A stretch of 64,000 nucleotides of DNA, taken from the NCBI GenBank assembly GCA_905221615.1, contig CAJNDT010005445.1, positions 440,153-504,152 on the forward strand, read 5' to 3'. The first letter of the stretch is position 1; each line of letters begins with the position of its first letter. The notes below the pieces were generated by a model, which had not been told where the DNA came from, made no database searches, and saw nothing but the letters and a program-made list of their open reading frames with translations. The DNA is from Symbiodinium sp. CCMP2592 (lineage: Eukaryota > Sar > Dinophyceae > Suessiales > Symbiodiniaceae). This document shows, piece after piece, positions 14,152 through 26,214 of this stretch. The translations under genes were made by a program, and so were the position numbers.

Positions 14152-14704
14152 GTGCCGATCGGATACACTAGGGGAGTTCGATTTCTGTCGGTCTTGGGAC
14201 GTCATGTTTTGGGTGTGGGTGCTTGAGGCTAAGGATTTGTGGGGGAAGTGGTGGTATTAAGGATTCTATGTTTTATGGGGTCCAAGATGGGTTCCCAATT
14301 ATCTGAAACTGCTATTTGGATTTTGGAACTGATGGTTTAGGATGTGCGGCTTAAGGTTTCGGAGCTAGGTTAGAGTCCAACCATTCCAAAGTCATGCAGG
14401 AAAAAGCCGCGCAATGCCCCCAAGTACCTGCTACACAGGCTGGGGTCACTAGATTTTGTTCCATGGATTTCCTCAACGCCGAACCCAAAATGTCAAAAAC
14501 AAACCTGTAATTTTGACCACATCGCTGTGTCAATTATTCAGGTCTTTCTACTAGCAGGGTAGCACGGCGAAGCTTGACGTCACAGGATCTGTTTGTCGGA
14601 TCAGTGTGTAAGGTTTGCAAGGGCTTTTCGAGGTTCAGGGTTCTGCATTCATGACATGCTTTGTTGCAGGGTTCGGGGCGGTCCAGGAAACTAACCCTAA
14701 ACCC

Positions 14705-14899
14705 TGCAGGCAGCAACGTAGTTGGGTGGTAGCCGGTCGCACACAAGCTGGCTGCTTTGGGAGTTCGCTGAGAGACAGTGTCCGTATGGCGCGGCGAACA
14801 GCACAATCTATGGACGTCAATCGGCTCTTTTCCTTGATCAGAATGCTGCGTGTCCAGTCATTCATGAATGAGAGGAGCAGCACCAGGATTTCACTGGCA
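14705..14899 (-). repeat. 3' LTR
   Basis: 195 bp, identical by eye to 23150-23344. On the element strand it starts TGCCAGTGAAATCC and ends CCTGCA. Confidence 0.95.
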
Positions 14900-14915
14900 T
14901 GCCCCCCTCCCCCGC
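14900..14915 (-). other. Polypurine tract
   Basis: On the element strand this reads GCGGGGGAGGGGGGCA directly against the 3' LTR, the expected primer for plus-strand synthesis in LTR elements. Confidence 0.85.
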
Positions 14916-14917
14916 AA

Positions 14918-16587
14918 CTAGAAGAGATCAGGAACGGTTTCAACTTCTTTCTTTAACTTCTCCCTAGAGTCCTGAAGAGGTGCAAGCCCTTCTGACTTGC
15001 GCTTCCGGGCTGAACGCATGTTCTCGTCCTCCACTATGCGCCACTGGTGCTGCATGCGATAGTAAAGCTCCAGTTCTTTGTGCTCGCCTGTTTTGGTGAG
15101 TGCATTGGCGAGCTGGGCTTCTGAGTGTACCCATCTGATGGCAACACCGGTGGATCCTTGGGACTCTTTGAGGCTCAAGAGCTCGATGTTGGATCGTTTC
15201 TCTGCCCCATTGATGCTCAGCGTGGCTGTGTTGAGCTTGTCGTATACGTTCCTGGAATCGGTCACGACACATCCTGGTACGCGACCAACTACTTGATCAG
15301 GTTGTCGTAGATCTACCTGACCGTACATCATTTCGCTCCACTGGTAGCGGATGTAGTACAAGGCGTCTTCTCCATTCACGGCGGCAGCTGTCTCAGCTGC
15401 ACCTGGGCTACGGCAGGACCTGTCGATGCGTGTAGAGTGCCACGATATGGGGCTTATAGGACAGACCTCTCCTTTCATGAGGTCACCGGTGGAGGCTCCT
15501 ATGAAGATTCCCTGGGTGCTTCCCCCATCAATGCGGTTCCTATCCGAAGCATCCACCCAAGCGAAGAAGTGCATCTCAGAAGACTGTCTAGTGATTAGCA
15601 TAGCATGATCCTTGCGCTGCTTCACCTGCTCAAGTAAGAGATTGGCTTTCACCAACGTGTCCACTGTGGACTGATTGACCTCAGAGAGCAACAGTCCAAC
15701 GGAGGCCGAAACGTGTGGGGCAACTTGTTGCGCGTGCCAGCTCAGTCCTCCAAGAAGTGCTCTTAATTTTGTTTTCTCATGATCCGTAGTGGGGGCTTTC
15801 CGGGCCTTCTTTCGTGACGAGCTCACATGTATCATGTCAATGTTATCCACGTATTTGGGTTGAGAAAGCCGAAAACCCTGCTCACAGGCCTCCACTTGAA
15901 CCCCACATTGGACAAAGGAATCCTGATCCCAATCTCCCCATTTAAACCGTTCTTGGATCTTCTTCAGCATCGCCTGCCATTCAACATCTTCATCATCACC
16001 ACCGAACATGAAATCATCAACATGTCCAGAGATCATGCCTCGAACCTGGCCATCTTTTCGCCACATCCAAGCGCACGAATCAGACCACAAGCGTTCAAAT
16101 CCTATGCTCTCCAAGAACTCGGCGACTGTCTTGTACCATTCAAGAGGCGCATCAACTAAACCATAACACGCACGCCGCAACCTAGTGATTGAGCCCGTGG
16201 GCAGTCCCATGGCCTCGCAGATCTCGTCGCAAGGGAGACAGTAGAGCTCGGAAGGATATTCGCGGCCTTGAAGGAATGCTCCACTCACATCGCCTTTTCT
16301 CAGCCGCCAACCTTTGTTAGCACAGAGTTGCAACATTAGCTGTCTGGTCTGACGAGTCATGACTGGAGCCGTAGTTGCACGATGTTCATATCCAGGGTCT
16401 TGGTATCCAAGTAGCACGGCTCGTGCCTTGGGTTTAAGGCTCCCGTCTTCTTTCATTTTCCATGTGAGAATCCAACGCATACCCACTGCCTGTTCTTTGT
16501 TGGGCCTCACTCCTTCAGGTAAGGCTTCAAAGGCTTTGGCCGCTATGAAGTTCTTCACCTCAATGCTCTTGGCTCCTTGGAACTTTT
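14918..16587 (-). CDS. pol: Copia pol C-terminal part: reverse transcriptase and RNase H
   Basis: About 550 residues, open from the frame junction at 16584-16587; numbering below is from the GTG codon at 16556-16558. RT signatures: KGDVSGAFLQG (Asp 90), the YGL...APLEWY segment (about 132-142) and GHVDDFMFGG (Asp 181, Asp 182). RNase H follows: AWVDASDR (Asp 336), Glu 389, VTDSRNVYD (Asp 434). The last conserved motif, usually A-D-x-x-T-K, reads QLANALTK, so the fourth acidic residue is Asn (AAT). It makes cDNA from element RNA in the cytoplasmic particle. This frame is offset from the integrase frame, so as written it is not joined to it. UAG/UAA-free to the stop at 14918-14920. Confidence 0.92.
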
Positions 16588-19500
16588 GGAGATAAGCGAC
16601 GCTCGCTCACCTCAATGGCCTTCCGCTTGAAGGCCCCAACAAAGTAGCCGTGTAGGTCGCGAGAGGCTTGTTCCAAGCCTCGCCGGCTCTCTGGGAGTGG
16701 GATTTCCACTTCCACCGCGGCACTCTCGTCGGTCCAGAAACTGGTGTGTTCAGCTATCCAGGCTGACTGGGGAACCTTCTCCCACCAGTATTGCGCGTTG
16801 ACATGTAGGTCCCAGTCGGGTTCTGCTTGACCCACTCGTCGCACATTGCTGGGTTGGCTGGAGCCGGTGGCCTCAGCTGGCTCCATCTCTTGGTCCTCTG
16901 GGTGCAGTGCGGCCGCGGGACGCTTGGTCGACAGTCGGCGCCGTGTCGGTTGGACCTCTTGTTCAGGATGTTGTGCCCTCCGCCATTCCTCGGTGGTGGG
17001 AATCTCTGCGCTGATATCTTCATGCTGGTTTCCGCCGACTTCTTCCGCCAGACGCGTAAAAGTCCACGGAGTTTGCTGGTGTTCCGTCAGTGCCTCTACC
17101 AGCTCCTCCCTCTGGCTTGCTGGTCGCAGTTGCTCAGGACTGCACTTAATGAGCCTCCTTCCGCGAACACACCAGATGGCATGGCCTGCGCGACTGTGCC
17201 CTGCCTCATCTGCTCGAGACTCCATGGCCAGCACACGAGCCGGGCCAAGGAACCGTCCTTGGTTGGTTCCAGGATGTTTCTTGCTTTTGTTGGACTCTTG
17301 TGTCCTCCAGAAATACACCAGATCGCCGGGCTGGTATGCCTGTGTAGGTCGTGCTCGAGAATGCAGAGCCCTCTGAATGCGCTGCTCTGCCATCCATTCT
17401 GCCAGACCCTTTTCTGCTTCCGCGCGCAATCGGGCTTCCCTTGCAAAATCCTCCAGGGGACGATTGAGCACCGGTTCGGGTGCCACAGCTTGCAAAACAT
17501 TCACATGGCTCCCTGTAACATCGGGGCTGTGTCCCAGAATATGTTGTGTAGGAGAGAATCCACGGACCATTTCTCTTTGATTGAACACCGACACAGCGAT
17601 ACTCAGTAGCTCCTCTGGTCCCAGATCTTTGTCTGTCTGGCTCATCTTTGACATCAGTTGTTTGATTCCCTGAATGGCTTGCTCAGCCACTCCGATCTGC
17701 CAATGTGCTTCTCCAGGAATGATGTCTAAGTAGATACTATGGCGATCACAAAACCCTTCTACAGCTTGCGCCCGAAAACTTCCTGCTGGATCGAGCCTCA
17801 AAGTCTTTGGTCGTCCGAAAGTCTGGATCCATCCTTCATTGAGGAAATTCAGGCAGGTAACGGCGTTGGGCGCTTGAGCTTTACCTTTGGTGAGGATCTT
17901 AGCCATCTTGAATCGGGATCCCTCATCCACAATCACCATAAAGTTCTGTTGTTCTCCTGAGGTAGGATGATGCCAATGCCCTATATCGCACGTCAAAGTA
18001 TGAAACTTTGGGGGAAGCGGCTCCAATGAAGCCACTTGTCGGGGTTGCACTTTCCGCTTCTCATCACACACGGTACATCTAAAGGACTTTGCAAGCTCAA
18101 GGACCTTGGGACTCGCGTTCCTACGCTTCAGAGCCTCTACCATGTGTCGAATGCTTCCATGGCCAGTTGCAGCATGAAGGAGGTACAGCTTTTTCTTGAT
18201 GGCTTCATCTTGCTTGTTGTTCTGGGCCTTGAGGGGTCCATTCCATGCTTTGCCGCTACGAAGCACATGCGCTGACTGAACAGTCTCCTGTGGAGGGCCT
18301 GGGAATCCTAAGCTTCGGAGGTGCTCTTTGAGGCCTTCATCAACCTGTATCCAACCCCTGCTACTGTAGGCACTCACCGTCATCCTATCGCCTTTCCAAT
18401 TCTGAGTACCATGCCACTTCCTACCGGAAAACTTCTGAATCTTCTGAAACACATCCAACTTTTGGCCCTGAACCCAATGTCCCTTCAGAAGTCGCTTACT
18501 GGAAACTCCCTCAGAAGCGTCCCCTTCTGAATGTTCCACCCACAACTCCCCTTCTTGGTAGTTTCCGAGTCCTACTACATAGTTGGGGCTTTCGGGAAGG
18601 TTGTGCACATCCTTGTGAAGCTCTAAGTGACAATTATCGTTGACGACAAAAGAGGTACAGTGCACAACTTCAGGGCTCCAATGTTGAAGATAGCGCAACA
18701 CATACCTACAAACACTGGGAAAGGCTTGGCTGTGTTTCGTGACGCCATAATGGTTTCCGTGGGAATACAGTCCGAAAGCAATGTAGCGTGGCTTGGTTTC
18801 GCGAATGGGGCCTCGGTGTTGCTTGGAAGGCTTGAAGGGGAGCTGCTTCAGGAGTTGTCTACAAGCTTCGTGCTGGAAGTTGGTGTTCTGGAGGAGAGCC
18901 TGGGCCTGGGACTCAAGGCTTCTTGTTACCTCGGAACTACACACAAGGGCCTCCTGAGGGTCTTCCAACTCGTTTCCGAATCCTTCAAGCCCTGAAGCCT
19001 CTGCACCGGTTTCCGCCGTGCTCTCTGAACCCATCTCGACTCTTCCCCGAAGGCAACTCGCACACGCAACTGGAATCCTCATACCTGTCGCCTCTCCACA
19101 TGTACAGAACTCTCCTTCTCCAAAGCCCTCTAAAAGTTGCGACATCCCTGCGCACTCCTGTAGTGTCCCTTGGTGGGACAATTCCTGAGTGACTGCTCGT
19201 ACCGCTCGGGCGACATACTCGGTGGTGTACTTGCTTGGTCCTATCAGCGTCCTTCCTTGGCAATTACCATGTTTGTACTGTTTGTCACATCTACATGGTA
19301 ACGACATGTCTTGAGCCAGGCGCTTGTTGGTTGTCATGATTCGCCATCCCTTTTGAACTAGCTTATGCTCATGAACGTCTCTCAGGTTGACAGCGCATCC
19401 CTTGGTGACTGCAGACAACATGTTGTACTTCGTGGCAAACTGCTGGCACACAGGTAACCGCCAAGCTTGATTGCGCTCAGACAGTTCCACCGTAACATGA

Positions 19501-20000
19501 ACACCGCTCTGTATACATAAGGCAATCACACAGGCAGCACCTACCAGGGTTCGCACATCTTCTTCCCGCTGCTTGAGGATTTGGGCCTTTTGTTGGGGGT
19601 CCTTCATGTTCATGTTTTGGTAGGGACAGTAACCTTTACACGCCGGGTTCATCCACACATGTTGGGGTCTTTCGAGCCTGATCCTACTCAGTTGGAGCTT
19701 GAGGCCTTCACTGGTCCCTAAGTCGCATCCGTTCCACTTACCGCAGACAACAGCAGCTTCAGGGTTTTTGGTCAGTTCGCAAATCCTCTGAGCAAGATTG
19801 CTGTTGGAATGGTCGCCACACTCCATCAAAACAGGCCGATCATATCCCGCCAGGGCCTGGAAGATCTCCGGAACAACTCTACTAGCAGCCTCATCCAGAT
19901 TACGAGCCTTATGTTCACCTAAGGGAACACTCTTACTGGAGGGGCGGTCCTGGCTAGAACTTGGTTCGCTAGGCTCACTGGCAACACTCAGTTCCCGGTC
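16560..20000 (-). CDS. pol: Copia pol middle part: MTase-like domain, TET/JBP-like dioxygenase, integrase
   Basis: Residue numbers count from 21140 on the open frame, which becomes protein-like near residue 380. Residues about 435-600: Rossmann methyltransferase-like, with MECGDHSNSNLA, WMNPACKGYCPYQN, VTVELSER and KGCAVNLRD in the order of cytosine methyltransferase motifs I, IV, VI and VIII. Two Cys/His clusters follow (C616, C618, H624, C627; C679, C681, C693, C696). Residues about 785-935: 2OG-Fe(II) dioxygenase with LHKDVHN (H842, D844), GLGNYQEGELWVE, distal H910 and R919. Integrase: H989, H994, C1022, C1025 zinc site, then D1052, D1117, E1153 (35 residues between the last two) and a basic C-terminal region around 1265-1345. 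The first two domains could modify DNA bases; activity is inferred, not shown. Confidence 0.85.
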   Translation of the reverse strand, partial: DRELSVASEPSEPSSSQDRPSSKSVPLGEHKARNLDEAASRVVPEIFQALAGYDRPVLMECGDHSNSNLAQRICELTKNPEAAVVCGKWNGCDLGTSEGLKLQLSRIRLERPQHVWMNPACKGYCPYQNMNMKDPQQKAQILKQREEDVRTLVGAACVIALCIQSGVHVTVELSERNQAWRLPVCQQFATKYNMLSAVTKGCAVNLRDVHEHKLVQKGWRIMTTNKRLAQDMSLPCRCDKQYKHGNCQGRTLIGPSKYTTEYVARAVRAVTQELSHQGTLQECAGMSQLLEGFGEGEFCTCGEATGMRIPVACASCLRGRVEMGSESTAETGAEASGLEGFGNELEDPQEALVCSSEVTRSLESQAQALLQNTNFQHEACRQLLKQLPFKPSKQHRGPIRETKPRYIAFGLYSHGNHYGVTKHSQAFPSVCRYVLRYLQHWSPEVVHCTSFVVNDNCHLELHKDVHNLPESPNYVVGLGNYQEGELWVEHSEGDASEGVSSKRLLKGHWVQGQKLDVFQKIQKFSGRKWHGTQNWKGDRMTVSAYSSRGWIQVDEGLKEHLRSLGFPGPPQETVQSAHVLRSGKAWNGPLKAQNNKQDEAIKKKLYLLHAATGHGSIRHMVEALKRRNASPKVLELAKSFRCTVCDEKRKVQPRQVASLEPLPPKFHTLTCDIGHWHHPTSGEQQNFMVIVDEGSRFKMAKILTKGKAQAPNAVTCLNFLNEGWIQTFGRPKTLRLDPAGSFRAQAVEGFCDRHSIYLDIIPGEAHWQIGVAEQAIQGIKQLMSKMSQTDKDLGPEELLSIAVSVFNQREMVRGFSPTQHILGHSPDVTGSHVNVLQAVAPEPVLNRPLEDFAREARLRAEAEKGLAEWMAEQRIQRALHSRARPTQAYQPGDLVYFWRTQESNKSKKHPGTNQGRFLGPARVLAMESRADEAGHSRAGHAIWCVRGRRLIKCSPEQLRPASQREELVEALTEHQQTPWTFTRLAEEVGGNQHEDISAEIPTTEEWRRAQHPEQEVQPTRRRLSTKRPAAALHPEDQEMEPAEATGSSQPSNVRRVGQAEPDWDLHVNAQYWWEKVPQSAWIAEHTSFWTDESAAVEVEIPLPESRRGLEQASRDLHGYFVGAFKRKAIEVSERRLSPKVPRSQEH

Positions 20001-20932
20001 CTTGGAGAACGGGCTTTGATCGCCACGAAGGAGCGGTCGGTCATGCTGTCGTCGTCGGATTGGATCGCCTGCTTCCGCGGCGGCTCTGACTTCATCGCAT
20101 TCATCTCCTCCTGCATCTGTGCCAACATCGCTGCCATCTCTTCCATCTTCTTGGCCTGGTCCGCCAACTTCTTGTCCGCATCGGCAATCACCTCGGGAGA
20201 GGACGTGCTGGACTCGGCGCCCTGGTTCTTCTCGATCAAGAGGGGTCCGGTAGGACGAGCCATTCCTTTGGGAGCCGGTGGAGCTGCTGTACTCGAAGGT
20301 CGACGGGAGCTGTAGCCCTTTGCTGTTGGGGGCTCTCTCCATGTTGTCAGGGCCTGTTGGTCCTGGCCTCCGGCGGTTGGTGGATGCGTCTCCAACCACG
20401 TCGCAAGGCGACGAAGACGGGGATCGCAGTCGTTCGGCCCCTCGCGGGCCGTCTGCATCACCCACCTGGCATACTCCTTGTAGTCCGTCTGGATGTCGAT
20501 GTAGCGCATCTCCCCGTGACGGCCGAACCCCACAATGTCGCGAGCCTCGGCCGGGGCTTTCTGGAGGATCACCTTCATGGCCTTCATCTCCAGTTGCGGT
20601 TTCGTCTCGTTGCCAGTCAACTCCATCTCCAGCTCGTTGGTGCAGTAGGTGACCAGCATGCTCTTGGTTTTGGTCGATTTCCGCATTTCCCTCGTCATCA
20701 TCTCGAGCGTTGTCGAGTTCATCTCGCGCTGCGTCTGTTCCACATCTCGGCCCTGTAGTTCGAGCAGCCTGGCACGGATCTCCACCTTGGTCCATGACTT
20801 GGCCGGATGTTCTCCGTACTTGTAGAGCTCCTCGGTCAGCTGGGCCTTTGTCATCTTGTACATGGCGCGCTGGTGGTCCAGAAGTTGGACAGGACGAGCG
20901 GGGCAAGGAACTGCTTGAAGCTGAATGGCCTC
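19988..20932 (-). CDS. pol: Copia pol N-terminal block in a shifted frame
   Basis: This frame is open from just after a TGA (20933-20935) to a stop at 19988-19990, and from its ATG at 20861-20863 gives 291 residues. It contains MTKAQLTEELYKYGEHPAKS, a run resembling blocks I associate with dinoflagellate copia polyproteins, then VGFGRHGEMRY, and a C-terminal coiled-coil rich in KMEEMAAMLAQMQEEM. The parallel open frame across the same DNA is rich in G, R, D and S and reads like a shadow. So the true coding path probably enters this frame near 20,935 and leaves it near 20,000. Function unknown; perhaps a particle or nucleic acid binding segment. Confidence 0.65.
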   Translation of the reverse strand, partial: EAIQLQAVPCPARPVQLLDHQRAMYKMTKAQLTEELYKYGEHPAKSWTKVEIRARLLELQGRDVEQTQREMNSTTLEMMTREMRKSTKTKSMLVTYCTNELEMELTGNETKPQLEMKAMKVILQKAPAEARDIVGFGRHGEMRYIDIQTDYKEYARWVMQTAREGPNDCDPRLRRLATWLETHPPTAGGQDQQALTTWREPPTAKGYSSRRPSSTAAPPAPKGMARPTGPLLIEKNQGAESSTSSPEVIADADKKLADQAKKMEEMAAMLAQMQEEMNAMKSEPPRKQAIQSDDDSMTDRSFVAIKARSPRTGN

Positions 20933-20935
20933 TCA

Positions 20936-21167
20936 CAGTACTGACACATGCGTTCCTGGACGAAGCATCAGAGTTTGCACCGCAGCAGGCACTCTCACAG
21001 GGAGAAGCGAAAGAAACTTTACCCCTAGGTTTCCTACTCTTATTCCCTTGGTTCCTGATCTCTGCATGAATTACATCAGCAGCTTCCACTTGCAAACTGC
21101 CGACAGGTCCCGTTGCACTATTGACCTCCATTTTCCCCACGGGACGGGAGAGATGGAGGAGCTGTCC
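20936..21167 (-). CDS. Copia segment following the gag-protease UAG
   Basis: In frame with gag-protease, after TAG at 21168-21170, the sequence stays open (GGA CAG CTC ... then ATG at 21129-21131). It reads plausibly for about 70 residues (motif EVNSATGPVGSLQVEAADVI) before the next frame change. It may be translated by readthrough or be part of a broken polyprotein. Confidence 0.5.
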
Positions 21168-23072
21168 CTAGCCCTCGACGAAATCGGCTAGGCTGGGCAC
21201 TGCTTGCTGAGTGCCGACTGAATCCCTGTACCAGTCTTCGGTCATGTCTAGCAGCTGGTGACCGGTAGCCGAGCGCTCGACTTTCACCAGCCGTGTCGGA
21301 TCCAGCTTCCTAAAACAAATCAAATCATGTTCAAAATCTATGATGGCTCCTAAGTTCCTCAGAGAGTCGACTGAGAGCAACAGTGGGCCATCTCCGTGAT
21401 CAAGGCAGTGTACGCGTAGGCGTCCTGGTTGTTGATTCGCCTGAATCGCCAGCTGAGCCGTGGAGGCACAGCGGTTCTCGGATCCATTGCCGAACCCAAA
21501 CACTGGCCTCTCTTCCATGTCTAACTCTGCGAGCCGGGTGTCGCCACGCTTTTGCTTGTTGATCTTCATAATCGCTTCCATAGCCGCGATCGAGGCCAGA
21601 GTCCTTGTGGCCCCACCATCCACAACTGCTTTTCCCAGTTTCACCGCGTCGGCCGTGGTCGTGACTTCCATAGCGTAGGCCTCCACCGCAACATCATTGA
21701 AGCAAATGAAGGATGAAGTCGCTTCCGGCTTGGTGTTTGCCTGGGAGACAGGTGGATGTGGACAGTTAGCCACTCGGTGGCCTTCTTTTCCACATCGCAA
21801 ACAGGTCATTCCTGAGTCATCGCGGCTGCCCTGAGATTGCTTCCCGCGACCAGCACCTTTCCGACCGGGATTGTAGTACTGGCGTGACAATCTCACACTG
21901 GTCTGGCGGGCACGTGCGTCTCGCAGGGTGCGACGTGCTTGGTGCATCGCCGCCATGGCTCCTTGTACGTCACCTTCGGCCTCGGTCCAAAGCTCCTGGT
22001 CCTCGGGGTTCAGGTCCTCGAAGGTCACGTCCACGTTCTCCTGGTCCTCGCCTTCCTCATCCTCCTCATCGTCCCGGTACTCCCCCAAGTAGCCTCCTTG
22101 GCGTCCGGCAGGTTCTCGACGAAGTAGCTCATTGCCCGACCATTGGTTCCTCAGTTCCTGAGCCACACGTTGGAGACTGAAGTCTCCTTGCAGCGCCGTC
22201 TGCACCACATTCTTCTCTTGTGTTGTGAGTCCTGCATCTTGAAGAAGATACCATCCTTGGACGTAGTCGGGAAGAAGTTCTGGCATCACTTCCTCCACAG
22301 GCTCGGATCGGCTGGAGTGCCAGTCATGAGCACTCCAGGAACTGCCACTACTCCAGGGGTTCCATGAGCCCCAGGAGCCGTAGTAGTAGCTCTGTCCAGA
22401 CCATCCCTCGCTCCAGCTTCTCGTAGTAGGCTGGTAAGATTCCCAGCCCCAGGTCTCGGCTTGGTCCTCCGGTTCGTCTGCCTCCTCATCAGGCGCCGCA
22501 GTAGCGTTCCCCACCACAGGTGCCGCGCTTTGAACTTCTGTCCGGGCCTCAGTTGTCCTTGGCTCACCTTGGGAATCATAGCTGTTCCTTCGGGAACCGG
22601 TCCAAGCTCGAGGCCATGAGGTAGCACTTTCCTTCGGAGTCTTCGAAGGTTGCTGGAAGGGTGCTACACGCCGAAGTGCTTGTTGTGCTCGTAGGTAGAT
22701 CTCGCACTTCCGGGTCACGTAGTCATTGATAGACTCTTGCTGGCGTCTCTTGCTATGCTTGAAGTAGCGGTTGAGGTAGTCACTAAGCTCCGAGATCTGC
22801 GGTCGCCCCAAACATGATCGCAGATGTCCGAGCAGGGTCTGTACTCCTCCGCTATACGAGAGCCAGGTGGCGCTCTTGCCCGCCACTAGTCGTCTCGCTG
22901 AGCCAGTCAGCTCTGCCAGTATCTTGGGACCTGTCAGGTACCTCTTCTCTCTGGCCACTGACTGCTCATACATCAAGCATGCCTCCTCAAAATCGTTGAA
23001 GCTTGCCGCTTCACCATCCCAGATGGGCACGCCGTCTTTGTTACGGTTGCCCAAGCCTCCGCTTGCCGCCAT
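21168..23072 (-). CDS. gag: Copia gag with zinc knuckle and aspartic protease
   Basis: 634 residues starting at ATG 23070-23072, which is 77 bp inside the 5' LTR boundary. Residues 1-140 resemble the copia capsid domain (SINDYVTRKCEIYLRAQQAL). Residues 205-255 are a Trp/Ser/Tyr/Gly-rich linker, and 330-350 is acidic. A CCHC knuckle is at C424, C427, H432, C437 and binds the RNA genome. The protease active-site region is VVDGGATRTLAS (Asp 485); the usual Ser or Thr after Asp is Gly. A flap-like LLLSVDSLRNLGAIIDF follows at about 564-580. It ends at UAG, in frame with the next segment. Forms the particle shell and processes the polyprotein. Confidence 0.92.
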   Translation of the reverse strand: MAASGGLGNRNKDGVPIWDGEAASFNDFEEACLMYEQSVAREKRYLTGPKILAELTGSARRLVAGKSATWLSYSGGVQTLLGHLRSCLGRPQISELSDYLNRYFKHSKRRQQESINDYVTRKCEIYLRAQQALRRVAPFQQPSKTPKESATSWPRAWTGSRRNSYDSQGEPRTTEARTEVQSAAPVVGNATAAPDEEADEPEDQAETWGWESYQPTTRSWSEGWSGQSYYYGSWGSWNPWSSGSSWSAHDWHSSRSEPVEEVMPELLPDYVQGWYLLQDAGLTTQEKNVVQTALQGDFSLQRVAQELRNQWSGNELLRREPAGRQGGYLGEYRDDEEDEEGEDQENVDVTFEDLNPEDQELWTEAEGDVQGAMAAMHQARRTLRDARARQTSVRLSRQYYNPGRKGAGRGKQSQGSRDDSGMTCLRCGKEGHRVANCPHPPVSQANTKPEATSSFICFNDVAVEAYAMEVTTTADAVKLGKAVVDGGATRTLASIAAMEAIMKINKQKRGDTRLAELDMEERPVFGFGNGSENRCASTAQLAIQANQQPGRLRVHCLDHGDGPLLLSVDSLRNLGAIIDFEHDLICFRKLDPTRLVKVERSATGHQLLDMTEDWYRDSVGTQQAVPSLADFVEG

Positions 23073-23131
23073 CTTCTGCCAAGGGCGAACGCTTGGCAGA
23101 CTGGTCCCTGGATCGAATGCTCACGAGCCCT

Positions 23132-23149
23132 TCACGGGCTCCGCTACCA
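23132..23149 (-). other. Primer-binding site
   Basis: The element strand reads TGGTAGCGGAGCCCGTGA immediately after the 5' LTR. TGG pairs with the CCA end of a tRNA, and the first 11-12 bases resemble the initiator methionine tRNA type used by many copia elements. Confidence 0.75.
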
Positions 23150-23344
23150 TGCAGGCAGCAACGTAGTTGGGTGGTAGCCGGTCGCACACAAGCTGGCTGC
23201 TTTGGGAGTTCGCTGAGAGACAGTGTCCGTATGGCGCGGCGAACAGCACAATCTATGGACGTCAATCGGCTCTTTTCCTTGATCAGAATGCTGCGTGTCC
23301 AGTCATTCATGAATGAGAGGAGCAGCACCAGGATTTCACTGGCA
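23150..23344 (-). repeat. 5' LTR
   Basis: 195 bp, matches 14705-14899 base for base by eye. It should contain the element promoter and RNA start, but no clear TATA box is visible, which is usual for dinoflagellate DNA. Confidence 0.95.
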
Positions 23345-23588
23345 AACCCTAGACCCTAAACCCTAGACCCTGAACCCTTAAACCCCTAACCCCTACACCC
23401 CTAAACCCCCTAAACCCTTAACCCTTAAACCCTAAACCCTAAACCCCTAACCCCTAAACCCCTAAACCCGTAAACCCCTAAACCCTTAACCCTTAAACCC
23501 TAAACCCTAAACCCCTAACCCCTACACCCCTAAACCCCTAAACCCCTAAACCCTAAACCCCTAAACCCCTAAACCCTAAACCCTAAAC
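23345..23588 (+). repeat. CCCTAAA telomere-like tract
   Basis: Over 30 units of CCCTAAA, CCCCTAAA and CCCTTAA, starting at the element boundary. It is part of the tract the retrotransposon split; its other side is at 14690-14704. Confidence 0.9.
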
Positions 23589-23600
23589 GGATGCGACCAG

Positions 23601-23678
23601 GTGCCACTGGAGTCGGACTTAGCAGATGCCATGGAGGTCCACGTCCTCTTCAACACCGTGAAGGCCCGTGGGCTTCCA
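23601..23678 (+). CDS. Exon-like island between inverted telomere-like tracts
   Basis: After GCGACCAG a frame of 26 codons is open and protein-like (ESDLADAMEVHVLFNTVKA), ending before GTCTACGG; a second GT is at the start of the TTTAGGG tract. CCCTAAA units lie immediately to the left and TTTAGGG units to the right. The partner exons are not identified, and the retrotransposon separates it from anything to the left. Confidence 0.45.
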
Positions 23679-23690
23679 GTCTACGGCCCC

Positions 23691-23833
23691 TTAGGGGTTT
23701 AGGGTTTAGGGGTTTAGGGGTTTAGGGTTTAGGGTTTAGGGGTTTAGGGGTTTAGGGTTTAGGGGTTTAGGGTTTAGGGGTTTAGGGGTTTAGGGTTTAG
23801 GGGTTTAGGGTTTAGGGTCCAGGGTTTAGGGTG
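23691..23833 (+). repeat. TTTAGGG telomere-like tract
   Basis: About 18 units of TTTAGGG or TTTAGGGG in the orientation opposite to 23345-23588, so the two tracts form a large inverted repeat around a 100-bp unique core. Confidence 0.9.
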
Positions 23834-23842
23834 TGGTTTCCT

Positions 23843-23956
23843 TACTTGGAGGTTCAGGGGTAGTTATAACTGAGGATATAAGTCCCCTAACTAGGGTTAT
23901 GAGTATAGTTATCCTGGTTATAACCCCGCTTATAACTACCCATGAACCTCCAAGTA
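23843..23956. repeat. Foldback element, family C (copy 2)
   Basis: TACTTGGAGGTTCAGGGGTA at the left and CATGAACCTCCAAGTA at the right; it follows the TTTAGGG tract by 9 bp. Confidence 0.8.
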
Positions 23957-24906
23957 GGGGTTTAGGTTCAAGGCTTAGGGTTTCATTACAGCCACAACCC
24001 CCGGATAAGATGAGAGAACTATAAGCGATGTGCAAGGGAAGGCTTGCTCCGGTTCTCTGATTCCTTCCAGAATTTCAAGGGGCTTCTGGAGGGCTGCAGC
24101 TTTTAAACCGACTTGGTGAGAGGGTCGGACATGTGGCTCCGAAATGTAGATTGTCACAAGATTTGTTTAGGTTTAGGGTTTAGTTGTTGTGTTTTTGGAA
24201 GGCTTTAGGGTTTAAGCTTTTTGATATTGGGACTACCGTTTTTCGTTCCTAGCACAAGCACCAGGGGAGCCGTAAAGAGCAAGATCAGACTCAAGCTGAT
24301 CCCGAGCTCCGCACACTGTCAACCTGATCTCACCATGCTAACCTACTTTTTGGATCCTCCCCTGAGCCCTAAACCCTAAAACCCTATAGGCCCTTAAAGG
24401 GACCCTTAAAGGAACCCCCCCCATTAAGAGATCTACTTCTTGGATCCTCCGAAGGGGGTCTGGGCATAGTTCACGGTTCAGGCTTGTGTTCTTGGCCTGA
24501 GGATTCTGTACTCACAGCGCTCGACTCCCAAACCTGACCGGATTAACCAGAGCTCCTTGCAAAGAAGCGTTAAACCCTAATCCCTAAACCCTGAACCCTA
24601 AACCGGCAAGCATGCATGAACGATGGGGAGCCCTAGATTACAATCCTAGACAGTTTGCCTCAAGCGCTCCTCTGTGGTTTTTGTCCCGAGGAGCGGAAAA
24701 GCTTCCGAAACCCTGCAGGGATTAGAGTCAATAGTATTGGGTTTTGCTTGAACCTACCAGAACCTACTTTTTGGCAGGGTCCGCATATAGAGTCCATATT
24801 AGAGTTTATGGTCAGAGCCCACAAAACAGGAGGTTCTTGCAGGATCAAGGTCTTAGAGCTCTAGGGTTAGGGTTGAGACTCCGCACAGTCGCTGTCTTCA
24901 ACCAAG

Positions 24907-25172
24907 GCATGGATCTTGAATGTTGCACTACCGCACGAGGATCCTGAGGCGATGGAGAGTTTAGCGGTTTAGCGAGATTCGGGCTTCAGGTGTAGGGTTT
25001 ACGTGCGGGGCATGGCTTCTGTGGCTTTCCGGTCCTGTTCTTGTGTTTTGTATCATGCTCTTGGGCCAAATTTTCGAACTCCCTATCTTTGCCTGTGGAG
25101 AGGCCGAAAGGCCACAGGAAAACGGAAGTCGGAATCAAGCCTATCTCTTCCTCTCGGCTTGCCTACTTCAGG
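24907..25172 (+). CDS. Two exons of a hypothetical gene
   Basis: Exon 24907-24958 follows CAACCAAG, reads WILNVALPHEDPEAME and ends before GTTTAGCGG. Exon 25101-25172 follows GCCTGTGGAG, reads ERPQENGSRNQAYLFLSACL and ends before GTTTGGGG. Phases 0-1 and 1-1 agree. Both donors lead into TTTAGGG-like DNA, and a CCCTAAA tract follows at 25250-25310. No family recognised; both ends of the gene are unresolved. Confidence 0.42.
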
Positions 25173-25249
25173 GTTTGGGGTTTCGAGTATAAGGTTTCGC
25201 ACCTCGGGATCCACGCCTTTCCGGTTTGACCATCACGTTCATAATTTCT

Positions 25250-25310
25250 TGATCCCTAAACCCTAAACCCTAAACCCTAAACCCTGATCCCTAAACCCTA
25301 AACCCCTAAT
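25250..25310 (+). repeat. CCCTAAA telomere-like tract
   Basis: About eight CCCTAAA or CCCTGATC-variant units. Confidence 0.8.
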
Positions 25311-25757
25311 GCACCCGGGGGCCCGAGCTAGCCTGTCTGTGTCTCATGAAGGGGTCGGTCTTGCCTTTTAGGGCTCTGGGTGTGACGGTTTAAGGCTTAG
25401 GGAGCTTAAGGATTGCTGCCGTTTCGGCGAACACCCCCAACCCCAAATTCAATGCCATGCGCGAACATCTCAAGGAGCCTTATACGGCAAGGTTTAAGGT
25501 TTAGAGGTTTGCGGCTTGAGGATTTAGTGATTTAGTGGTTTAAAAGGGTTTAGGATCGGTGAGGCCAAGTTACGGTCCTGGCAAACCTAAGAATACACCA
25601 AGACATCTCCTAAACTCCTGACCCCTTGACCCTAAACCTCAAACCTCTAAGCCCTGAATTCTTAAACCCGAAATCCAGAACCCCTAAACCCGAGACCCAC
25701 CGACCTCAACCCAGAATGGCGGAAAAGGCAACCCCAGACCTCCTAAACAAAACTTCC

Positions 25758-25860
25758 CTGGAGGTTCATGGGCAGTTATAAGTGGGGTTCTAAGTCCCCT
25801 AATATGGGTTATAGCTATAGTTGTCCTACTTATAACCCCACTTATAACTACCCATGAACC
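25758..25860. repeat. Foldback element, family C (copy 3)
   Basis: CTGGAGGTTCATGGGCAGTT at the left pairs with AACTACCCATGAACC at the right. Confidence 0.75.
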
Positions 25861-26214
25861 CTAAACCCTATACCCTTATAGAATCCCTATAGCCGTTAAA
25901 GGGGCCCTTAAAGGAACCCTTATAACTACATTATATCATCAACCCTAAACCCTAAACCCCTAAATCCTAAACCCCCTAAACCCCTAAACCCTAAACCCCT
26001 AAGCGGTAAACCCCCTAAACCCTAAACCCTCATAGAATCCCCATAGATCCCTTTAAAACTCCCTGAAAAGGAACCCTTATAACTACCCATGGACCTCCCA
26101 AGTTTTTGCCCATGGCTGGCTCTGTGCCCTTGGAAGGCTGTGCTCGAGGGCTGGGGCCTGGCGGAGCTTGAGGCGCTTCAGCTCGCGAGTGGTAGAAGGG
26201 GGGGGGGGCATATT

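Follow-up and report, generated by a model that had tools for sequence, protein, structure and literature searches.

In a window of 64,000 nucleotides from Symbiodinium sp. CCMP2592 (contig CAJNDT010005445.1, positions 440,153 to 504,152), we analyzed a Copia long terminal repeat (LTR) retrotransposon that lies on the minus strand. Our results suggest that it belongs to a large Ty1/copia lineage, known from Symbiodinium relatives, whose pol has gained a methyltransferase-like domain and a TET/JBP-like 2-oxoglutarate (2OG)-Fe(II) dioxygenase domain, and that the latter probably oxidizes a DNA base. What was observed, and what this reading starts from, is the predicted fold, the conservation of the active site, selection, the many copies and the position in pol. 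An earlier note on this DNA had picked out the motifs of both domains from the sequence alone. They are given below with residue numbers of the stop-to-stop frame, in which H842, D844, H910 and R919 of that note are residues 851, 853, 919 and 928. The 34 database proteins and the window yielded 28 usable dioxygenase regions and 27 usable methyltransferase-like regions, and active-site counts come from the alignment of the 28 related dioxygenase regions (193 scored columns). The counts include the gene models P0003, P0012, P0016 and P0029, each of which is incomplete, disrupted or nearly a duplicate; P0035-P0039 lie outside the conservation alignment.

19062..19871, minus strand: methyltransferase-like domain, residues 433-702
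18303..18791, minus strand: TET/JBP-like 2OG-Fe(II) dioxygenase domain, residues 793-955, placed by its own family profile, the predicted model and fold searches
18609..18617, minus strand: HKD, Fe ligands H851 (H in 27/28) and D853 (D in 28/28)
18600..18602, minus strand: N856 at H+5 (28/28), the position of TET2 Asn1387 and NgTET1 Asp234
18411..18413, minus strand: distal Fe ligand H919 (27/27 rows with a letter)
18384..18386, minus strand: 2OG-binding Arg R928 (26/27)
18366..18368, minus strand: Y934 at R+6 (Y or F in 27/27), the position of TET2 Tyr1902 and NgTET1 Phe295
19797-19826, minus strand: motif MECGDHSNSN
19614-19655, minus strand: motif WMNPACKGYCPYQN
19473-19496, minus strand: motif VTVELSER
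19377-19403, minus strand: motif KGCAVNLRD
18534-18572, minus strand: motif GLGNYQEGELWVE

All of the motifs that the earlier note had named were found in their places in the minus frame 16560-21167, and conservation across the 28 aligned dioxygenase regions ruled out that they are there by chance. The columns of H851, D853, H919 and R928 were among the least variable of the 193. The two His, the Asp and the Arg were kept in nearly all relatives, and the metal triad, the 2OG Arg and both TET base-pocket positions in 18/18 loci read in the genome, which include the window and the near-identical pairs WIN/L038, L039/L040, L029/L042 and L030/L031. The earlier note had named two outcomes that would refute the dioxygenase, a fold unlike a double-stranded beta-helix and a lack of conservation at the His/Asp/His and Arg positions; neither was seen, and the predicted fold is a double-stranded beta-helix. 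The AlphaFold model of 18288-18950 (pLDDT 90.9, pTM 0.88) had CcTet, TET2 and NgTET1 as its best structural matches in the PDB, with AlkB enzymes near. TET or AlkB-type enzymes made up 49 of the best 50 VIA entries (of 1000 aligned chains), and the remaining one, 6n1f, is an unspecified bacterial 2OG oxygenase. A predicted double-stranded beta-helix of the 2OG-Fe(II) superfamily, nearest TET, together with the conserved His/Asp/His/Arg, bears out the proposal of a TET/JBP-like dioxygenase, and the domain almost certainly has a 2OG-Fe(II) fold with a working site. Judged from the alignment, the base-pocket positions of TET also appear to be matched, with Asn at H+5 in 28/28 and Tyr or Phe at R+6 in 27/27 (TET2 from the PDB reads HAHRDLHNMQNGSTLVCTL and the window domain LHKDVHNLPESPNYVVGL). 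According to passages of PMC11040006 and PMC7854593, the TET residue at H+5 (Asn1387, Asp234) binds N4 of 5-methylcytosine (5mC), the aromatic residue at R+6 (Tyr1902, Phe295, Phe391, Phe416) is stacked against the base, and a His or Arg at R+8 is in contact with it; CcTet has Gly at H+5. In a less confidently predicted loop preceding the beta-helix, residue 785 (18813-18815) is a nearly invariant Arg, which could correspond to the base-stacking arginine of TET enzymes.

The link to TET/JBP was also seen in sequence profiles. The Pfam Tet_JBP profile gave four matches in the genome, all below its cut-off and in repeated frames of 1231-1283 amino acids. One of these, L043, fits Tet_JBP at E 3.7e-6 (26.7 bits; cut-off 34.9), and the Copia dioxygenase profile, built without L043, gives 82 bits on it. 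Because L043 matches both profiles, the family is tied to TET/JBP by sequence as well as by fold. We filed the domain as TET/JBP-like and not as a curated member, because the fold, the residues and this bridge support it but the curated PF12851 cut-off was reached neither by the window domain, which has no match, nor by L043. NCBIfam profile searches gave no match for either window domain, and PHROGs gave weak dioxygenase matches, the best of them to a queuine transferase family (7/20 members, E 0.0013). A DNA scan found no viral relative. The alignment search for stand-alone relatives returned five further proteins of 102-293 amino acids; because none of these carries a source's name, no origin outside these elements was found. 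That the domain is nearer TET/JBP than AlkB and that its substrate is a nucleic acid are both, in our view, highly probable.

Both domains are present in many copies. The dioxygenase search of the genome gave at least 150 matches (the best 150 of 4570 candidates, E 1.8e-115 to 3.3e-23); stops lay inside 3 of these 150, while 114 were held by frames of at least 1500 amino acids and 89 by frames of at least 1900. At least 142 methyltransferase-like matches were listed, and one was listed 651-1149 bp upstream on the same strand for 120 of the best 150 dioxygenase matches. The other 30 have no listed partner, in part because only the best candidates were scored. Among 20 loci chosen only for RVT_2, both domains were detected in one by these profiles, and they were present in 9/9 loci chosen for an RVT_2 match and a frame resembling that one positive locus. 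Nine of the 34 related proteins carry a source's name, in every case Symbiodinium retroelement-type or hypothetical.

Codon comparisons between copies indicate that purifying selection is acting on both domains. Relative to the nearest copy, the dioxygenase region (151 codons) showed 4 synonymous and 3 nonsynonymous changes, a nonsynonymous to synonymous rate ratio (dN/dS) of 0.19, and the methyltransferase-like region (270 codons) 9 and 2, respectively (dN/dS 0.06). For more distant pairs dN/dS was 0.07-0.15, but there dS was close to saturation or beyond it. Trees of the two domains (22 proteins) shared the groups window+P0001, P0002+P0005, P0006+P0008, P0012+P0016, P0015+P0020 and P0021+P0024+P0026; P0014, P0018, P0013 and P0022 changed position between the trees, for the most part at weak forks. 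Because some proteins carry one domain without the other, the dioxygenase counts as a separable module: P0023, P0027 and P0028 have the methyltransferase-like domain without the dioxygenase and then the integrase, and P0033 and P0034 have the dioxygenase upstream of reverse transcriptase without a detected methyltransferase-like domain. P0034 has lost the 2OG Arg. A far-diverged Copia frame of 3021 amino acids, L044 (C258:929800-934200), holds the methyltransferase-like domain, dioxygenase and integrase in order, and its Cys site is replaced (PEY in place of PPC).

The proposal that the upstream domain is cytosine-methyltransferase-like stood in part. Its fold was best matched by DNMT3, among the C5-methyltransferases, but other Rossmann folds scored almost as high, no profile match to DNA_methylase (PF00145) was found in Pfam, and there was no sequence match in the PDB. 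The first Foldseek hits were beta-carbonic anhydrases (E 4.6e-3 and worse), which we judged weak because their TM-scores were ~0.2. The Cys at the catalytic position (motif IV) was kept in 13/27 relatives and 8/17 loci of the genome, so that about half of the relatives lack it, and the window reads P-A-C in place of Pro-Cys, so the Cys is present without the adjoining Pro. We did not adopt a proven C5-methyltransferase identity. Descent from C5-methyltransferases is nevertheless likely, and catalytic activity in the clade of the window is doubtful. Strongly conserved Cys and His resembling a zinc site occur in the C-terminal part of the domain (C-x-C...H...C at 19260-19295 and C-T-C at ~19098-19106). 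If the domain were an active C5-methyltransferase, it would write 5mC for the dioxygenase to oxidize, and the two would form a write-then-oxidize cassette. We consider this unlikely, since the Cys has been lost in 14/27 relatives and 9/17 genome loci although selection still acts on the domain, the sub-clade of the window has a residue other than Pro ahead of the Cys, and no methylase profile matched. The methyltransferase-like domain would most likely serve as a DNA-binding or base-presenting partner of the dioxygenase, and may have remained a methylating enzyme in those lineages where the Cys is present.

A similar pair occurs in a second retroelement family. The frame of L043/L045 (C485:45600-53000) holds a TET-like domain, a DNMT-like stretch (by eye, IAPPCGTAS ... 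FTLENPANSHFW), a linker and a reverse transcriptase (RVT_1 E 0.0044, below cut-off; RNase H by eye). The element may be DIRS-like. Downstream of this frame, L045:2684-3499 holds another reverse transcriptase frame (RVT_1 E 7.9e-5). In hhalign the DNMT-like stretch aligned to the Copia methyltransferase-like profile with a probability of 55% (E 1.2e-4), PPC on PPC; it had no PF00145 match and no DNMT match in the PDB by sequence. A genome search with the L043 TET-like domain gave at least 150 matches (the best 150 of 5095 candidates, one copy split in two pieces); 3 of these 150 have stops and 64 lie in frames of at least 1200 amino acids. No listed L043-type place fell within 5 kb of a listed Copia dioxygenase match. 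One L043-type locus was read, and the DNMT-like stretch is known from that locus. The TET-like and DNMT-like pair has been fused twice, in opposite orders, which argues for a functional partnership.

For the Copia family, we infer DNA as the substrate, which base is oxidized, the role of the partner domain and the benefit to the element. The dioxygenase would most likely flip a base from DNA and hydroxylate the 5-methyl group of 5mC or thymine. As a part of pol adjoining integrase, it would be packaged in the particle and meet element cDNA and/or the target DNA that integrase holds, and the new copy would escape silencing by host CG methylation or bear an oxidized base. Passages of PMC5890265 report that most CGs are methylated in Symbiodinium; if the host is so methylated, oxidation of 5mC could lift silencing. 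Oxidation of thymine would yield 5-hydroxymethyluracil (5hmU). The TET-type fold leaves the base undecided, because NgTET1 acts on thymine too, as stated in a passage of PMC12344493. In our judgment, the chances that it serves to mark or de-silence cDNA or target are about even.

Alternatively, the dioxygenase might write 5hmU or 5-hydroxymethylcytosine (5hmC) as a mark that silences or labels the element, and so restrain transposition or serve the host. The title of a PNAS 2024 paper on a dinoflagellate 5-hydroxymethyluridine enzyme names a role in transposable element silencing, and part of PMC11071213 reports that 5hmU is enriched over most repeats in Breviolum. On the other side, at least 300 element-type matches were listed, 294 of them without an internal stop, and these, with the low dN/dS, fit a benefit to the element more easily; a silencing role is among the less probable explanations. 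Still more improbable is an AlkB-like demethylase that removes N-methyl damage or marks (m1A, m3C, m6A) from element RNA or cDNA, like the AlkB domains found in plant RNA viruses or in orchid Ty3/Gypsy elements. AlkB enzymes have a second Arg at R+6 (RxxxxxR), where the Copia family has Tyr or Phe in 27/27 as in TET; the Asn at H+5 is invariant, as in TET2, and L043 fits Tet_JBP and no AlkB family in Pfam. Hydroxylation of a protein (capsid, integrase or host factor), a structural or other non-nucleic-acid role, is very improbable: single members of 20 weakly matched Asp/Arg hydroxylase (E 0.053) and the halogenase WelO5 (E 0.073) in Pfam, and giant-virus Asp/Asn hydroxylases are in the viral structure list, but nearly all of the best VIA entries are TET or AlkB-type and the TET pocket positions are kept.

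Several observations weigh against a TET/JBP-like oxidase of DNA that is maintained for the element. In the VIA list AlkB-type enzymes come within ~1 Z unit of the TET enzymes, and the viral list contains many of them; RNA as the substrate remains compatible with the data. The window dioxygenase matched neither Tet_JBP nor another 2OG profile of Pfam, and had no sequence match in the PDB. The His or Arg of TET at R+8 is mostly replaced by Ser (21/27); Arg occurs at R+9 (residue 937) in 25/27, and L043 lacks this Arg. Three near-identical pairs, all with too few changes to judge, gave higher dioxygenase ratios, namely 0.60 for L030/L031 (1 synonymous, 2 nonsynonymous) and 0.27 for L039/L040 (3 and 3); L029/L042 showed 0 synonymous and 1 nonsynonymous change. 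Finally, the coding frame of pol in the window copy is broken between integrase and reverse transcriptase, at 16560-16606, and because of this interruption the copy is not intact.

The remaining features of the element are as follows.

14705-23344, minus strand: whole Copia LTR retrotransposon, bounded by a pair of identical 195-bp LTRs with AACCC duplications on either side, and with a primer-binding site
23150..23344, minus strand: 5' LTR, 195/195 bases the same as in the 3' LTR
14705..14899, minus strand: 3' LTR, 195/195 bases the same as in the 5' LTR
14700..14704 (left copy) and 23345-23349 (right copy), strand not applicable: target-site duplication AACCC
23138..23149, minus strand: primer-binding site TGGTAGCGGAGC, immediately following the 5' LTR
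21168..23072, minus strand: gag, carrying a CCHC zinc knuckle at 439-455 of the frame and a DGGAT protease motif recognized by eye
19988..20863, minus strand: coding frame between gag and pol, with low pN/pS in that frame only
17532..18188, minus strand: pre-integrase block and integrase core, ends placed by motif, by hand
14918..16606, minus strand: reverse transcriptase (RVT_2) with an RNase H-like end recognized by eye; the frame is shifted

The order is gag, the 19988-20863 frame, methyltransferase-like domain, dioxygenase, integrase and RVT_2 reverse transcriptase. We assigned the element to Ty1/copia because integrase precedes the reverse transcriptase and the latter is of RVT_2 type (Pfam E 3.4e-24); the LTRs and target-site duplication are also those of this class. 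The insertion is recent, because the LTRs are identical. The primer-binding site presumably resembles that for initiator-Met tRNA, and a G-rich tract precedes the 3' LTR. The integrase core matched Pfam rve (E 0.015) and NCBIfam IS481 (E 0.0047), both under cut-off, and the family alignment agrees; the gag zinc knuckle matched Pfam zf-CCHC at E 0.0019 (18.7 bits, under its cut-off of 20.8). CCCTAAA telomere-like repeats surround the element (14691-14704 and 23345-23590, with further arrays at 23668-26000). The AACCC duplication belongs to these repeats, for which the element might have an insertion preference; a chance AACCC match is likelier than usual, as TAAACCC-like repeats start both flanks.

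Both domains lie in the frame that was first read, but the N-terminal block that the earlier note placed before them had to be reassigned, since ~20932 to 19990 is coded in an overlapping frame. In the 19988-20932 frame, the ratio of nonsynonymous to synonymous differences per site (pN/pS) relative to two other copies was 0.11 and 0.39; the frame first read gave 2.09 and 1.75. On these values, the first ~390 residues of the 1535-residue frame were rejected as protein. Two long open frames overlap between gag and pol, and low pN/pS was seen only in 19988-20932. No Pfam family scored above cut-off in the 19988-20863 frame.

Both DNMT-bearing retrotransposons and DNA transposons that carry TET/JBP genes have already been described. 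The window domain resembles TET/JBP enzymes (TET2, NgTET1, CcTet and CMD1, the last compared from papers only) in its double-stranded beta-helix, H-x-D...H, 2OG Arg, Asn/Asp at H+5 and Phe/Tyr at R+6. It differs in that it sits in a retrotransposon pol, is too divergent for Pfam Tet_JBP and mostly has Ser at R+8 and Arg at R+9. The fungal elements described in PMC12730594 are also mobile elements that encode a TET/JBP-type dioxygenase, but they are DNA transposons, Helitrons included, and this 2025 survey states that it found such a dioxygenase in no retrotransposon. Similarly, SymbioLINE-Dnmt and SymbioDIRS-Dnmt3, as presented in passages of PMC5890265, are Symbiodinium retroelements with a methyltransferase domain in the coding region, but their DNMTs are PF00145-detectable and occur in LINE and DIRS elements. 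According to the same passages, the Copia elements of Symbiodinium have no DNMT domain, and the main text never uses "TET" (0 occurrences). A passage of PMC12344493 mentions DNMT3 for streptophytes and dinoflagellates, in Copia and DIRS elements, and does not say in which of the two groups the Copia elements occur. The orchid Ty3/Gypsy elements of PMC9289625, which carry an m6A demethylase domain (AlkB), are likewise LTR retrotransposons with a captured 2OG dioxygenase; unlike the Symbiodinium family, they are AlkB-type, act on RNA and are Ty3, not Copia. The dinoflagellate 5-hydroxymethyluridine enzyme (Li et al., PNAS 2024) links thymine oxidation to transposable elements by its title, on which our comparison rests, and may bear on novelty. 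No retrotransposon with a TET/JBP dioxygenase was named among the literature search results listed.

Altogether, one genome yields at least 300 separate matches, and in two element types, in opposite orders, a methyltransferase-fold domain adjoins the dioxygenase; this is no curiosity. It is conceivable, though rather unlikely, that at least two classes of dinoflagellate retrotransposons carry a base-editing cassette that rewrites cDNA or target at integration, and that together they are a main source of 5hmU/5hmC on dinoflagellate repeats. The pairing of a dioxygenase with a methyltransferase fold in pol suggests a genomic parasite that edits chemical marks on DNA, and it offers a testable link between retroelement activity and the hypermethylated CG and abundant 5hmU on repeats of dinoflagellates.

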